Assembly: GCA_943357915.1 (NCBI GenBank)
Contig: CALRGQ010000007.1
Span: forward strand, 1-41,122
DNA: 41,122 bases
From: Candidatus Peribacteria bacterium
Lineage (GTDB): Bacteria; Patescibacteriota; Gracilibacteria; Peribacterales; Peribacteraceae
Reading direction: 5' to 3'
A program made the translations under genes and the position numbers. Each line of letters opens with the position of its first letter. Position 1 is the first letter of the stretch. Of the stretch, positions 2,943 through 40,305 are shown piece after piece. The notes beneath the pieces are model-generated. The model was given only the letters and a program-made list of their open reading frames with translations. It was not told the origin of the DNA and made no database searches.

Positions 2943-4175
2943 GTGAACTTCGATATTTCATCAATTCGTCGGCAATTTCCGATCCTCCAAAAAAAAGTGG
3001 GAGGGCAAGTGCTTTGCTATCTAGATAGCGCTGCTACAAGCCAAAAGCCGCAACCCGTCATCGATGCAATTTCCGGTTTTTATACGACGAAGAATGCCAA
3101 CGTGAACCGTGGTGTCCATGCACTCTCAGAAGAAGCAACTGTCTCCCATGACCAAGCACGCAACACTGTACGTAAGTTTCTGAATGCACGACATTCACAT
3201 GAAATAATATTCACCAAAAATGCAACCGAGGCCATCAATCTTGTTGCTCATATTTTCGGTGACACTCTAAAACCTGGCGACCATATCGCATGTTCAGTAC
3301 TGGAACACCACAGCAATATCATCCCATGGATGCAGTGTGCGGAAAGAAAGGGGTTAGAACTGGACTGGTTACCGATCACAAAAGAAGGATATTTAGACCT
3401 GCGCGAAACAGAAAAAATACTGGCAAAAGGTAAGACAAAACTTGTGGCCATCAGCGGACTCAGTAACGTAGTAGGCACGCTGCAGCCCATTACAGAGATG
3501 ACTGCATTAGCACATAAATACGGCGCGGTTATTCTGGTGGATGCATCACAACTCGCAGCACATGAACCGATCGATGTGCAAAAACTTGATTGTGATTTTT
3601 TGGCTTTCTCAGGCCATAAAATTTATGGACCGACTGGCATCGGAATTTTATACGGCAAGACCGCTCTTTTAGAAAAAATGCCGCCTTTTCTGGGCGGTGG
3701 TGACATGATCCAGAGCGTTACGAACGCTGGCTTTACGTGTGCCGAACTTCCACGAAAATTTGAAGCCGGCACACTCGCAGCTGCAGACGCTGCTGGCCTG
3801 GCTGCGGCGATAGGTTGGATGGAAAAAGTAGGAATAGAAAACATACAAAAACATGAAGAGTCACTCATTGCTCATACGCTCACAGAACTGCAAACAATCA
3901 AAGGCCTGAAAATTCTTGGCCCCACCGATCCACAAAAAAGAACCGGATGCGTAAGCTTCACGATCGACGGCATCCATCCTCATGACCTCACAGATATTCT
4001 CGGAAAAGAAGGCATCTGCTTGCGTGCCGGACATCACTGTACCCAGCCGCTGCACGCATTTTTAGGCATCACGGCTTCTACTCGCCTATCGGTAGCCGTT
4101 TATAACACCATCGAGGAAGTCGACCAGACTATTGCGTCAATTCTTAGGGCGCAAAAACTATTACAAAAAAAATAA
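2943..4175 (+). CDS. sufS: Cysteine desulfurase SufS (group II)
   Basis: This is a PLP-dependent cysteine desulfurase that takes sulfur from cysteine as a persulfide for Fe-S cluster assembly. The 410 residues match the usual SufS length. The PLP lysine is K226 in SGHKIYGPTG, and the catalytic cysteine is C366 in RAGHHCTQPLH, the group II signature. The N-terminal YLDSAATSQKP and RGVHALSEEAT segments are also typical. The start is GTG at 2943; a TATACT box at 2928-2933 sits 9 nt upstream, so the message is probably leaderless or nearly so. The gene is followed after 39 nt by a SufU/IscU-like scaffold on the same strand, forming a sulfur donor plus scaffold pair. SufB and SufC are not in the window, and SufD lies about 35 kb away. 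Confidence 0.95.
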   Translation: MNFDISSIRRQFPILQKKVGGQVLCYLDSAATSQKPQPVIDAISGFYTTKNANVNRGVHALSEEATVSHDQARNTVRKFLNARHSHEIIFTKNATEAINLVAHIFGDTLKPGDHIACSVLEHHSNIIPWMQCAERKGLELDWLPITKEGYLDLRETEKILAKGKTKLVAISGLSNVVGTLQPITEMTALAHKYGAVILVDASQLAAHEPIDVQKLDCDFLAFSGHKIYGPTGIGILYGKTALLEKMPPFLGGGDMIQSVTNAGFTCAELPRKFEAGTLAAADAAGLAAAIGWMEKVGIENIQKHEESLIAHTLTELQTIKGLKILGPTDPQKRTGCVSFTIDGIHPHDLTDILGKEGICLRAGHHCTQPLHAFLGITASTRLSVAVYNTIEEVDQTIASILRAQKLLQKK

Positions 4176-4214: not shown

Positions 4215-4622
4215 TTGGATCTCTACGCCGACAACATTCTCGATCATTACAAACACCCGCGAAATACGGGCAGTCTTACAGATGCGATCTCGCACCGTGA
4301 AGAAAATATTTCCTGCGGCGATGATCTAATAATCGATCTCACCATTGACGACGGAAAAATTAAAGATCTCAAATGGCGTGGCCAAGGCTGTGCTATCAGC
4401 CAAGCTGCGATGTCACTGATGTCTGAAGAGCTGATCGGCATGACGGTAGCCAAAGCAGAAACATTCAAACCGGATGATGTGTACAAGCTGCTTCGTGTTC
4501 CTGTCGGCCCACGAAGATTTAAGTGTGCACTGCTCGGTCTCCACACTTTTCTAAATACACTGCGTAAAGCCCAAGAAAAGCCCCTTCAGAGTTGGATAGA
4601 AACCGTGAGCGTGGATAATTGA
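4215..4622 (+). CDS. sufU: SufU/IscU-like Fe-S cluster scaffold
   Basis: This is a 135-residue U-type scaffold or sulfur acceptor that works with SufS. The three cluster/zinc cysteines are present: C34 in SCGDD (with D36), C59 in GQGCAIS and C104 in RFKCALLGL. The position before the third cysteine is lysine, as in SufU-type proteins, rather than the histidine of IscU. The spacing between the second and third cysteines is only 45 residues, close to IscU and without the roughly 20-residue insertion of Bacillus-type SufU. So it combines features of both. The start is taken as TTG at 4215, immediately after a short tandem repeat, because the family N-terminus (LYxxxILDHYxxPRNxG) begins there. 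It lies 39 nt after sufS and is likely cotranscribed with it. Confidence 0.88.
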   Translation: MDLYADNILDHYKHPRNTGSLTDAISHREENISCGDDLIIDLTIDDGKIKDLKWRGQGCAISQAAMSLMSEELIGMTVAKAETFKPDDVYKLLRVPVGPRRFKCALLGLHTFLNTLRKAQEKPLQSWIETVSVDN

Positions 4623-6089: not shown

Positions 6090-6944
6090 TCAAACGCCCC
6101 CCAATTCCGGCCGCCGTTTTTTCGCCGGCAGATCTAAGTAATTTTTTTCGGACACCACTGGTTCCCCGCTCTCCACTTCCAATTTCTTGCGAGCATCACC
6201 AGCAATCTTTCCGCCTTTTTTCGCCGCAACACGATTCTGCTGAAACCCTTGTGTATCTTTTTTCTGGGCGATTTCCGTCGTTGCCGCTTCGCCGAGCATG
6301 GTGAAGATGAGTTCTAAGTCATTCATGTGGTCACGAAGATTCTCACGTTTGAGTTTTTTCTTTTGCTTGTACTCTGTGGGTGTTATCCCAAACGTTGCCT
6401 TGGAAATTTCCGCTGTCAGGATACCGTACTCCTTCCCCTCTTTCACTCCACGATTTTTCCACTCATCCGTGAGCTGCTCACGAACAGCGATGCCCCGCAT
6501 CCGTTTCTCAATCCAGTCGTCGGGATAGCCCTTGGCTTTGTAGAGGGCACGAGTGCGCTTGGTCGCCAGCTCTGGATCTTCGATCTCCTGCACCCGCTCA
6601 TATCCGACTTTAGCGAGCCAGCGCTTAAATGGCTCGGCCTTTGGGGACGGAATGGACTGGATGATGCGGAAGATATTCTCGGTGTTTGCACAGTCTGTCT
6701 CATACATTTTCCCATCTGCCGACCGCAGTTTCAGTTGTCGACACAATGTCGACAACTCGGCACCGTCCTCCATTTGCACACGAACTTTCATCCTGTACCA
6801 GTAATCGCGAGAATTGATGGTTTCCGTCAGTACAGCGATGACATCGACAACCGAAAACCACCATTCATTCTTATACAGTATCTTGCGTATCTCTTTGTCA
6901 TGGAAGATCGCAATGCGGGTCTCGGGAGCAGGTGAAGTATCCAT
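6090..6944 (-). CDS. Bro-N family (phage antirepressor-like/DinD-like) protein
   Basis: The N-terminal part carries the Bro-N fold signature (IAIFHDKEIRKILYKNEWWFSVVDVIAVLTE... split by variable residues), followed by the RSADGKMYETDCANTENIFR strand region and IQSIPSPKAEPFKRWLAKVG. The C-terminal half is basic and helical (KKLKRENLRDHMNDLE, KGGKIAGDARKKLE), resembling the chromosomal Bro-N/DinD group. These are DNA-binding proteins first known from phages and baculoviruses; many chromosomal copies are of unknown role. The start is set at ATG 6944 (284 residues) because TACATT at 6954-6959 lies 9 nt upstream; an ATG at 6971 would add nine residues. No phage structural genes are nearby, so it looks like a domesticated or lone accessory gene. 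Confidence 0.8.
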   Translation of the reverse strand: MDTSPAPETRIAIFHDKEIRKILYKNEWWFSVVDVIAVLTETINSRDYWYRMKVRVQMEDGAELSTLCRQLKLRSADGKMYETDCANTENIFRIIQSIPSPKAEPFKRWLAKVGYERVQEIEDPELATKRTRALYKAKGYPDDWIEKRMRGIAVREQLTDEWKNRGVKEGKEYGILTAEISKATFGITPTEYKQKKKLKRENLRDHMNDLELIFTMLGEAATTEIAQKKDTQGFQQNRVAAKKGGKIAGDARKKLEVESGEPVVSEKNYLDLPAKKRRPELGGV

Positions 6945-7014
6945 AGGTGGATGAATGTACACCCTTATCACATGAGGTCAATAGATTTTGGTGACATATG
7001 CTGTAATAGCGTAC

Positions 7015-7126
7015 TCACACAAACACCGTCATCACCCTCAGCACACTATCCACGATCACCGTGATCCATGTCAGTAAAATCGGAATACCAAGCATGCGCT
7101 CTGCAAGAAGCAAACCGATCAGGATG
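7015..7126 (-). pseudogene. C-terminal fragment of a second site-2 protease (M50) copy
   Basis: This segment repeats 9096-9207, the 3' end of the intact M50 gene, in the same orientation, with roughly 90% identity. It encodes the last 37 residues plus the stop, with only about two amino-acid changes (ILIGLLLAERMLGIPILLTW compared with ILIGLLIAERMLGIPILLTW). Most differences are silent, so the lost paralog was probably functional before truncation. It breaks off where an orphan tRNA 3' half begins. Confidence 0.85.
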
Positions 7127-7127
7127 A

Positions 7128-7170
7128 AATTCCTAAACGGTCGCGGGTTCAATTCCCGCAGACGGCTCCA
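7128..7170 (+). pseudogene. Orphan tRNA 3' half (T-arm, acceptor 3' strand, CCA)
   Basis: A T-arm GCGGG/CCCGC encloses TTCAATT (7144-7160) and is followed by the acceptor strand AGACGGC, discriminator T and CCA at 7168-7170. The matching 5' half (expected to start GCCGTCT) is absent; upstream lies the protease fragment instead. It is not a copy of the tRNA-Thr in this window, whose T-arm differs. The break falls near the anticodon, the usual attachment core of tRNA-targeting integrases. Confidence 0.75.
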
Positions 7171-7183
7171 TCATTCAATTACT

Positions 7184-8125
7184 TCACTTGCGTTCGATCA
7201 GAGTGAATGTTTTATCTGGGTCCAAGCCCATGACTTGTGCCACGGCATCTGACTCTTCTCGGGTACTGTAGAAGAGAAAATTCGCCAGAGCCGACTTTTC
7301 ACCGTTCTTGTTCAATCCAGCAGAAAAATCTCCATAACGATTTTTAAGATTCTTACGGACCGCATCAGACATAACATCATATTCACTTAATCCTCCTTGT
7401 CGCATCCTCTTTTTTTGATGTTCGAAAATTGCCTGAGGAACAAAAAGTATCCCCGGGTTCTCCGATTGGTGGTCATTCGTTTCATGATCATGCAAAACAT
7501 TAACGAAAAATGGAATGCCTCCGATAGAAATGATATACATCGGATCAAGAGGATCCCGACTGTAACCCTGAGCTACGGAGCTCCCGCTTTGCGCATCAAA
7601 GTCACCAATGACCTTCAGCAGTTTAGAAAAATACGAGATCGCTTCAATACGCGAAGAGAATTGCTTATCGATCACCGCAATGAATACCGTATTCAATAGA
7701 GGCGTTTCATTTGGACTTTTTTGCATCTCGTCGGCATATGCTTCAACGCGATTCAGCTCTGCATAACGCGATATAGCCGAAAATAATGCGGGTAATTCCT
7801 TCGTGGGATCAATCAATGCATCGCCGGAAAAATTGGCAAGGAAGGTATCTCCTTTTTCCATGACTTGTGTCGCTCCCGGACATGAAAATCTGCCACGCGT
7901 CTTTTCGCGCTCACCGGTCAACAATACAAGGCGGAGGAGGCCCGCAGTGACAAGTCTGAGCGTTTCAGGAACGTTATTCTGAGCGTGCAATGCGATAATC
8001 TCGGCGTCCATAGCTTCAAAATCATTCGTTTTATATTTGCCACGACGAACGAACAGAGATTTCTCGTTCACAGAATTGCCACTTGATTCAACAATCTTCA
8101 GTGAAGATGGAGAGGTACTAGACAT
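7184..8125 (-). CDS. YqcI/YcgG-like protein (tentative)
   Basis: A 313-residue soluble protein. Three segments recall the YqcI/YcgG family: FSCPGATQVMEKGDTFLANF (family: a Cys-containing FPC-FG segment followed by a basic strand), GGIPFFVNVLHDHE (family: FFVVGLHP), and GILFVPQAIFEHQKKRM followed by a helical tail with GDFSAGL. That family has no firmly established biochemical role. The match is by eye and could be wrong. The start is ATG 8125 rather than TTG 8134, because TATAAT (8134-8139 on the minus strand) lies 8 nt upstream. It is divergent from a TrmB-type regulator across a 129-bp AT-rich region, which suggests the regulator may control it. Confidence 0.5.
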   Translation of the reverse strand: MSSTSPSSLKIVESSGNSVNEKSLFVRRGKYKTNDFEAMDAEIIALHAQNNVPETLRLVTAGLLRLVLLTGEREKTRGRFSCPGATQVMEKGDTFLANFSGDALIDPTKELPALFSAISRYAELNRVEAYADEMQKSPNETPLLNTVFIAVIDKQFSSRIEAISYFSKLLKVIGDFDAQSGSSVAQGYSRDPLDPMYIISIGGIPFFVNVLHDHETNDHQSENPGILFVPQAIFEHQKKRMRQGGLSEYDVMSDAVRKNLKNRYGDFSAGLNKNGEKSALANFLFYSTREESDAVAQVMGLDPDKTFTLIERK

Positions 8126-22203: not shown

Positions 22204-22247
22204 AAAAAAACTCGTATGCAGGAAGGCATGAAGTATAGACTATGACT

Positions 22248-22853
22248 ATGCCAAAGACACGACAATCAAAGGCGCTTGCCAAACCAAAAAAGGCTCCCAA
22301 GCAAAAAATTCCAGATGTTGATGCATCGATGAACGTCATGGAAATCATCGGACTGCACCCTGAAGCAGCGGATATTCTGGCCGCCTACGGACTGCATTGT
22401 TTTCAGTGCGCATTTAACACACTGGACTCACTGGAATCCGGAGCCAAGTCTCATGGGCTCACCGATACAGATATTGAAAATATGGTGAACGACATTACAG
22501 AACTTCTGCAGTTGTCACCCGTCCCACCTCAAAAACTCACTCTCACCGAAAGTGCGGCAAAGGCACTGCTCGAAATTGCGAAAGCAGAAGGAAAAAAGAC
22601 ATGTCTCTTAAGAGTAGGAAGTGACGACTCCGGTGGCTTCTGCATGGAATTTGCAGAACTCAAGACATCAGAAGACCGTGAATTTAGTAACGCCAACGTG
22701 AAAGATGTATCACTCATCGCAACTCCTCAGGCATTGCACCGCATCGGCGGTTCTACGGTGGATTTTCGGGAGGGAAGGTTTAAGCTTGATGTACCGAAAG
22801 CGTCATCCTGCGGATGTGAAAAGAAAGAATGTTCATGTAAAAAAAGTGGCTAG
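22248..22853 (+). CDS. DUF1858 + IscA/HesB-like fusion protein
   Basis: A 201-residue two-domain protein. After a basic, Pro-rich tail (1-22), residues about 23-88 form a DUF1858 domain (MEIIGLHPEAADILAAYGLH then C51-x-x-C54), a small helical domain found on its own or with hybrid-cluster and ScdA-like proteins. Residues about 95-201 resemble an A-type Fe-S carrier (LTLTESAAKALLEIAKAEGK, LLRVGSDDSGG-FCMEFAEL with C132) ending in a Cys-rich tail with C188, C190, C195 and C197, in place of the CGCGxSF motif. It probably binds or delivers Fe-S clusters with the SufS/SufU pair, but this is inference. ATG 22248 is chosen over 22242 because TATAGA (22234-22239) then lies 8 nt upstream. Confidence 0.8.
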   Translation: MPKTRQSKALAKPKKAPKQKIPDVDASMNVMEIIGLHPEAADILAAYGLHCFQCAFNTLDSLESGAKSHGLTDTDIENMVNDITELLQLSPVPPQKLTLTESAAKALLEIAKAEGKKTCLLRVGSDDSGGFCMEFAELKTSEDREFSNANVKDVSLIATPQALHRIGGSTVDFREGRFKLDVPKASSCGCEKKECSCKKSG

Positions 22854-22854
22854 A

Positions 22855-22935
22855 GGTTAGTGGCTAGTGATTAGTCGCAAGCGATTTTCAATGATTTTCG
22901 CAAAAAAACTAACCACTAATTACTAACCACTAACC
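22855..22935. repeat. Long imperfect inverted repeat (GGTTAGTGG type)
   Basis: A 21-base left arm (22855-22875) matches the reverse complement of 22915-22935 at 19 of 21 positions. The right side is itself a tandem of CTAACCACTAA/TTACTAACC units. It begins 2 nt after the stop codon of the fusion gene and ends 20 nt before the promoter of the RNase H gene. Confidence 0.8.
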
Positions 22936-22954
22936 ACTTCTCAAACGCACGCGC

Positions 22955-39334: not shown

Positions 39335-40135
39335 TCAGCCATGTACCTTCAGCGCCGCTTGTACTGCAACGCGGATTTTTTCCTGTGAAATCCGCTCTGT
39401 CAGTTCATACAAAAAGCCATCCACAAACATGCTGCGTGCCGTCAGGCTATCAATCCCGCGTGACTGAAAATAAAAGAGATCCTCAACGGTCACACGCGAG
39501 ACTGTGGCACTGTGACTCGCTTTCACGTCGTTCGTACGAATCTCCAGTCCTGGGATCGCATCGACTTTTGCCGTCGCATCCAGCATCAACACGTCTTCAG
39601 TAAGATACGTGTCTGTGCCAGTCCCCTGCTCCGTAATCTCGATCATGCCATTGCAGACCGCAAACGCATTCTGCTCGGCCACTCCTTTGAGTGTGATTTC
39701 TCCGCCGCCATTTCTGGCCGCAAAAATATTACGAACGGTCACGGACTGCTTGTCTTTTCCCGAGACCGAAAAAATCCAGTCGATATTGCTGACTGCATTC
39801 GGACCAGCACAGGTGGACACAAGAGAATGAACGTCATTCGCTCCACCCAGCGTCGTGCAGTGCCAGTGGAGTGAAGCCCCTTCACCGACTGAAGATTCCA
39901 GCTTTCTCGCAGATCCGGTACTCAGTGAGATATACGTCACATCGCTCTCAGGCTCGAGTGTGACACTCACAGAATGCAGCACAGACGAACTGGTATCAAA
40001 AATCGTCACCCGCGCGCCGTGTCCTACGGAAACTTCCAGATGTGACTCAACACCGTCCAAAGCAATACTCATCGGCTCAGTAGGGCTTTCCCCTGCTCTA
40101 ACCGTTATTCGCCGTATATCGGTGGCTTTTTTCAT
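39335..40135 (-). CDS. sufD: SufD-like Fe-S cluster assembly protein (SufBD family)
   Basis: A 266-residue protein of the SufBD beta-helix family; SufD partners SufB and the ATPase SufC in cluster building. Diagnostic C-terminal sequence is PGLEIRTNDVKASHSATVSR with the conserved His, then DLFYFQSRGID and ARSMFVDGFL. The central part is all beta with hydrophobic alternation. It is shorter than classical SufD (about 400) because the N-terminal domain is reduced. ATG 40135 is supported by CATACT 6 nt upstream; 40159 would add eight residues. SufB and SufC are not in the window. It is convergent with the hypothetical gene after the rRNA. Confidence 0.88.
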   Translation of the reverse strand: MKKATDIRRITVRAGESPTEPMSIALDGVESHLEVSVGHGARVTIFDTSSSVLHSVSVTLEPESDVTYISLSTGSARKLESSVGEGASLHWHCTTLGGANDVHSLVSTCAGPNAVSNIDWIFSVSGKDKQSVTVRNIFAARNGGGEITLKGVAEQNAFAVCNGMIEITEQGTGTDTYLTEDVLMLDATAKVDAIPGLEIRTNDVKASHSATVSRVTVEDLFYFQSRGIDSLTARSMFVDGFLYELTERISQEKIRVAVQAALKVHG

Positions 40136-40305
40136 ACTGGGAGTATGGAAGAAAAACATGAAAATTGGTATACAGACAGGAAGAATATAGATGTCGTGAG
40201 AGAATGAGAAAATGTCATACTGAAGCCACTTTCCGTGATAATCCCGCGAAATAATTTGCTAGATTATTGATATTTCTTTATAAAGTGGTATAAATTCCCT
40301 CCCCT

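Follow-up and report, generated by a model that had tools for sequence, protein, structure and literature searches.

In the stretch of Candidatus Peribacteria DNA analysed here (41,122 nucleotides, referred to as the window), the open frame at 22248..22853 on the plus strand (201 amino acids plus stop) encodes a DUF1858 domain fused to a domain that descends from A-type iron-sulfur (Fe-S) carriers. With moderate confidence, the fusion is regarded from sequence comparisons as a late-acting carrier of Fe-S clusters, or a targeting factor, for the SUF machinery that works like NfuA, and it probably stands in for the usual Fe-S carriers in most close relatives. Support for this reading comes from the A-type homology of the C domain, the place of the gene in the suf operon of one sister family (f5), the missing usual carriers, fusions of DUF1858 to NifU_N and SufT, a constant CxxC motif and the precedent of NfuA. 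The first three of these (the third being the failure to detect Nfu, SufT or a stand-alone A-type protein in f1, the family of the window) also favor the lineage-specific Fe-S carrier suggested in an earlier note on this DNA, a suggestion that appears partly supported and the best founded of those considered.

The gene and its DUF1858 domain

An alternative in-frame ATG is located at 22242, 6 bases upstream of 22248; the start equivalent to 22248 is the one used by homologues. The gene is under purifying selection, with dN of 0.15 and dS of 2.6 (saturated) relative to the nearest homologue. Cysteines are located at positions 51, 54, 119, 132, 188, 190, 195 and 197 of the protein. Directly behind the gene, a hairpin (22844-22939) with inverted arms of 37 nt, repeated TTAGTGGTTAGT-like words and an RNA fold of -35.8 kcal/mol (z -7.3) was noted, and complementary-looking stretches were also seen by eye behind the stop of the G015 homologue. 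Selenocysteine was considered for the TGA of that homologue and rejected; the sequence after this codon (part read, by eye) is repeat-rich and lacks a cysteine-rich continuation, and the TGA is therefore taken as a normal stop.

In a single-sequence phmmer search, the fusion protein matched 2k5e, a DUF1858 structure, and HI1723, an A-type protein. In agreement with the earlier note, the N domain (residues 25-71; 22320..22460, plus strand, placed by genome search) is a DUF1858 domain with a C51-x-x-C54 motif, for which the PF08984 score of 36.2 bits exceeds the cut-off of 32.2. This domain also passes the cut-off of TIGR03980, the hybrid cluster protein-associated redox disulfide domain of NCBIfam, and comparison of a predicted structure model with 2k5e gave a VIA Z of 9.0. 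The CxxC motif is near-invariant among the 83 distinct full-length fusion proteins of nine families (one distinct protein per genome, covering model positions up to 22 and from 163, with 30 partial matches excluded), C51 being present in 82, C54 in all 83 and the complete motif in 82.

Such constancy, together with the redox disulfide name of the NCBIfam model, would fit a thiol-disulfide or persulfide relay in which the CxxC pair of DUF1858 reduces SufU/SufB or relays sulfur to them and the A-type domain only docks. DUF1858 selenoproteins with CxxU, which are tabulated in excerpts of PMC9312934 and PMC13188914, suit a redox role as well, as does the retention of CxxC by fusions of families f5, f6, f165, f156 and f173 despite their cysteine-free tails. 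This relay is nonetheless considered rather unlikely, as five further cysteines that are conserved in f1 would be superfluous for it and as hybrid cluster protein (PF03063), the partner in name, was found in none of 59 genomes. The likeness to TIGR03980 therefore stops short of its partner association, and hybrid cluster protein was rejected as a partner of the fusion.

When the N-domain profile was compared with the PDB, the next-ranked match after two DUF1858 structures was ScdA (E 0.016-0.018). A role in Fe-S repair or iron donation, related to that of ScdA/YtfE, might be imagined from this match and from the interaction of YtfE with IscS and IscU that is described in an excerpt of PMC8117158. 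ScdA was matched only weakly, with single-domain E values of 0.76 and 1.7, and no Pfam match of the fusion protein to a hemerythrin-like (di-iron) domain of the RIC/ScdA type was obtained at E up to 1, which makes such a factor very improbable. The Nfu domain (PF01106) was similarly without a match in the fusion protein at E up to 1, and none was found in genome G000, that of the window.

Fusions of DUF1858 to other Fe-S proteins were also noted. Thus, NifU_N with a C-terminal DUF1858 is encoded by a further three genomes of this phylum (G045, G095 and G112; proteins at L087:7285-7905, L117:767-1459 and L121:1501-2244), and SufT::DUF1858 is recorded for four proteins (S6 architecture, n = 4) in an excerpt of PMC4982691. 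The former come from the phylum of the present fusion and, like it, combine DUF1858 with a protein of Fe-S assembly, but their partner is a U-type scaffold and their DUF1858 is C-terminal; the latter likewise join DUF1858 to an Fe-S maturation factor, with another partner domain and another domain order. The union of DUF1858 with an A-type domain, with a U-type scaffold and, in published proteins, with SufT points to a role in Fe-S maturation. In genome G056, DUF1858 was noted near the C terminus of a 424-residue protein (L088:7741-9012) whose gene is convergent with an adjoining gene for a short SUFBD_core protein (6875-7732).

The A-type domain and its cysteines

The C domain (22533..22814, plus strand, as placed by PF01521) scored 18.5 bits with PF01521 (Fe-S_biosyn), below the cut-off of 26.3, and the protein was also below the cut-off of TIGR00049. 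Other fusion members pass the PF01521 cut-off (36.9, 47.2, 34.9 and 39.0 bits), and profile-profile comparison by hhalign with canonical A-type domains from sister families (n = 8) gave a probability of 98.4 and an E of 8.8e-15. Searches of the PDB with a profile made from f1 only matched 1nwb (AQ_1857) at 2.3e-7, HI1723 at 3.6e-7, IscA at 2.6e-4 and SufA at 6.7e-4, and a wider profile matched A-type structures at up to 2.4e-11. SufA and IscA were among the top matches of the predicted model (VIA Z 9.3 over 92 residues at 3.4 A for SufA, 8.7 for IscA and 8.0 for IscA with [2Fe-2S]); Foldseek also ranked A-type structures first, yet with no E below 0.001. Mean pLDDT of the model was 67, and since it fell under 50 for residues 168-201, no claim is attached to the geometry of the tail. 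The C domain thus descends from A-type carriers, as the earlier note had supposed. Of the two domain searches it proposed, that with PF08984 succeeded and that with PF01521 fell below cut-off for the window protein, so that the lack of a HesB/IscA profile match, which it would have taken as a refutation, applies to the single protein at the Pfam cut-off and not to the family.

An A-type carrier sensu stricto is defined, in an excerpt of PMC2682760, as a single complete PF01521 domain, whereas the domain described here is fused to DUF1858. Nor does it have three cysteine ligands with the first in a GCxG loop, this loop being deleted and CGC kept. In a tree of the C domain based on 100 columns, f1 sequences grouped together (55 in a clade of 56, support 0.80); these columns gave no firm deeper order and did not settle whether the fusions of families f166 and f18 arose independently.

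The positions of the cysteines differed in part from those assigned in the earlier note, according to which a four-cysteine tail replaces the canonical CGCGxSF end and the first conserved cysteine sits in GGFCMEF. In profile alignments, C188-G-C190 fell on the CGC of IscA, SufA, HI1723 and the stand-alone A-type proteins of sister families. The tail (22809..22838, plus strand) therefore retains the canonical CGC, and its novel part is an added CxC (C195 and C197); the GxSF that follows CGC is lost. Alignments by hhalign, HMMER and MAFFT paired FCMEF with Y-x-M-x-F of a canonical strand and indicated deletion of the CxGF loop, and the predicted model places Cys132 inside strand 131-135. Single-sequence alignment by phmmer paired Cys132 with the canonical first cysteine instead. 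On the evidence of the profile alignments, which were trusted over the latter, Cys132 does not correspond to the first cysteine of canonical proteins and is a new one in the next strand. The oddity noticed earlier was thus real and had been placed one motif off.

Few positions of the f1 domain are better conserved than Cys132 (51 of 54 proteins), which does not occur in any of the 29 full-length fusions from other families. Similarly, at least four tail cysteines were counted in 47 of 54 f1 proteins and none in six, while 21 of 29 tails from outside f1 are without cysteine. Conservation of the cysteines, on which the earlier note had staked its proposal, consequently stands inside f1 and fails outside it. 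Lineages differ in their A-type cysteines, which may be canonical, relocated or missing: fusions of f166 and f18 retain canonical motifs in the A-type domain, those of f16 have cysteine-rich tails, and those of f5, f6, f165, f173 and f156 have tails without cysteine and keep CxxC. A count of three GCSG-like motifs in f1 was obtained with a loose pattern applied to everything after residue 60.

Alignment of C188 and C190 with canonical ligands, as well as the frequencies of Cys132 and of tail cysteines within f1, could be accounted for by a classical A-type carrier with its cluster on the rebuilt cysteines (i.e., Cys132 and the CGC/CxC tail) and with DUF1858 for docking only. Absence of all tail cysteines from most sister-lineage proteins while CxxC stays, and the six cysteine-free tails within f1 itself, make this arrangement quite unlikely. 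The same six tails, and the existence of versions with DUF1858 only (G018) or the A-type part only (G014 and G414), might be ascribed to decay of the A-type part to a functionless remnant, an explanation that is scarcely credible in view of purifying selection, invariant residues in the 54 f1 proteins and full-length retention in nine families. In G014 (L090:6802-7183, minus strand) and G414 (L113), where the A-type part stands alone, the residue at the position of Cys132 is not cysteine (ALFMEF) and the tail is dense in Cys and Gly.

Distribution, gene order and other carriers

Of 59 relatives, 41 had a homologue of the fusion, as did 122 of 353 genomes of the class and 64 of 379 of the phylum; coverage outside the class was mostly of DUF1858 only. 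A survey of the fusion, as the earlier note had proposed, found it to be common: 57 of 74 f1 genomes contained matches, 54 of them full-length (G018, G014 and G414 accounting for the part-length ones), and 29 full-length proteins came from eight other families (f5, f6, f16, f18, f165, f166, f173 and f156). Distribution outside the phylum rests on one pattern scan for close relatives, in which 84,980 species gave four loci, all from Candidatus Peribacteria/Peribacterales metagenome assemblies. The homologue set consisted of 32 distinct sequences from 34 loci (two duplicates); alignment A2 included 31 of these 32, without L024, which has no tail after its stop, and alignment A3 included 27, without L024 and four out-of-family rows.

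The SufS/SufU pair and the SufD-like protein that the earlier note placed in the same window were all found by Pfam. The gene for a SufS-like cysteine desulfurase (2943..4175, plus strand; PF00266, 477 bits) is not adjacent to that of the fusion; a SufU/NifU_N protein is encoded at 4215..4622 (plus strand; PF01592, 87 bits), a short SufD-like SUFBD_core protein at 39335..40159 (minus strand; PF01458, 150.6 bits) and SufB on another contig (G000:C1:134255). The SufD-like protein has 274 residues, compared with 437 for SufD of the f5 operon, and many second SUFBD copies of f1 are similarly short.

Linkage of the fusion to suf genes was evident from family f5, in which the gene comes after sufU in the suf operon in all three genomes (Pfam scan for G039; tblastn for G051 and G550). 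Thus, the order Rrf2-SufC-SufB-SufD-SufS-SufU-fusion, with the fusion as the last gene, was found in G039 and G051, and SufD-SufS-SufU-fusion was found at a contig end in G550. Genes for SufB, SufD, SufS and SufU were near the fusion at none of 26 other non-f1 loci, and among the 54 f1 loci, where flanks were mostly limited to about 1.5 kb on each side, none had adjoining suf genes. At all 50 f1 loci with sufficient flanking sequence, a divergent S41 peptidase gene lies upstream; at 41 of 53, an RNase H-like gene closely follows the fusion. Unlike in f1 and f5, the fusion in two f6 genomes (L085:6039-7762 and L086:7408-9194) has immediately behind it a gene of one and the same kind, beginning MKTIFLAAG, that looks like a nucleotidyltransferase.

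In Pfam searches of 36 f1 genomes (G000-G035), Nfu, SufT and a separate A-type carrier were not detected. Among the 59 relatives, Nfu was found in three and SufT in three, none from f1, and all nine PF01521 matches were to the fusion itself. PF01521 overlooks most fusions and might equally miss an A-type protein that stands alone and has diverged, so that the absence of a separate A-type carrier is the weakest of the three. Stand-alone canonical A-type proteins were noted in families f19, f21 and f175 of the class. No genome had both the fusion and Nfu or SufT (0/31 vs 6/28; Fisher p 0.008 with genomes counted as independent). At the family level this exclusion was not significant (p 0.30), and exclusion of Nfu/SufT by the fusion was accordingly rejected as significant only with genomes so counted.

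The fusion was without any match in 8 of the 36 f1 genomes (G002, G009, G010, G017, G025, G027, G029 and G035), of which seven contain SufB/D, indicating that the fusion is not obligatory. These genomes speak against a carrier, as do the lack of suf adjacency outside f5, genome G050, in which the fusion is present and SufB/D absent, the family-level p value, and radical-SAM clients, which number 0-3 per f1 genome and showed, by eye, no tracking with the fusion.

Proposed role and relation to known systems

Nfu domains contain a CxxC motif. In the carrier function favored here, we infer that clusters built on SufB-SufC-SufD would be passed to the fusion protein, where the CxxC of DUF1858, probably in a dimer, may be the site kept across all lineages; the A-type domain would dock apo-proteins as clients and, in f1, might additionally offer a rebuilt thiol set (i.e., Cys132 and the CGC...CxC tail). 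More tentatively, and with less confidence than the general function, DUF1858 itself, an unrelated CxxC domain, may be the cluster-carrying module that replaces Nfu in an analogue of NfuA, with the A-type domain shifting from cluster holder to docking domain through canonical, relocated and cysteine-free stages.

The closest precedent is NfuA, in which, according to an excerpt of PMC8593673, an A-type domain without a required cysteine targets apo-clients and the Nfu domain carries the cluster. Like the fusion, NfuA combines an A-type domain that has drifted with a second module (PMC8593673 and PMC2682760, in excerpt). This second module has a CxxC motif in both proteins, and in both the A-type domain is without a canonical ligand, the first-cysteine loop being deleted in the fusion. 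In contrast with NfuA, the CxxC module of the fusion is DUF1858 and not Nfu, the domain order is reversed and tail cysteines have been added. SufA, IscA and ErpA share with the fusion a homologous domain, its fold and the CGC; the fusion differs from them in lacking the CxGF loop with the first ligand and in having the new Cys132, the extra CxC and an N-terminal DUF1858.

The fusion was undescribed in the literature searched (DUF1858, DUF1858 with HesB, Peribacter iron-sulfur), largely without full text. Its domains and Fe-S carriers as such were already known; what appears, from sequence, to be new is their combination, together with the move of one cysteine and the doubling of CxC. No function is assigned to DUF1858 in Pfam, and the domain would gain one if the cluster-carrying reading is true. 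A role in Fe-S maturation would also explain how clusters could be delivered in a lineage in which Nfu, SufT and a separate A-type carrier were not detected, and the lineages that carry the fusion form a natural series of an A-type domain losing or moving its ligands.
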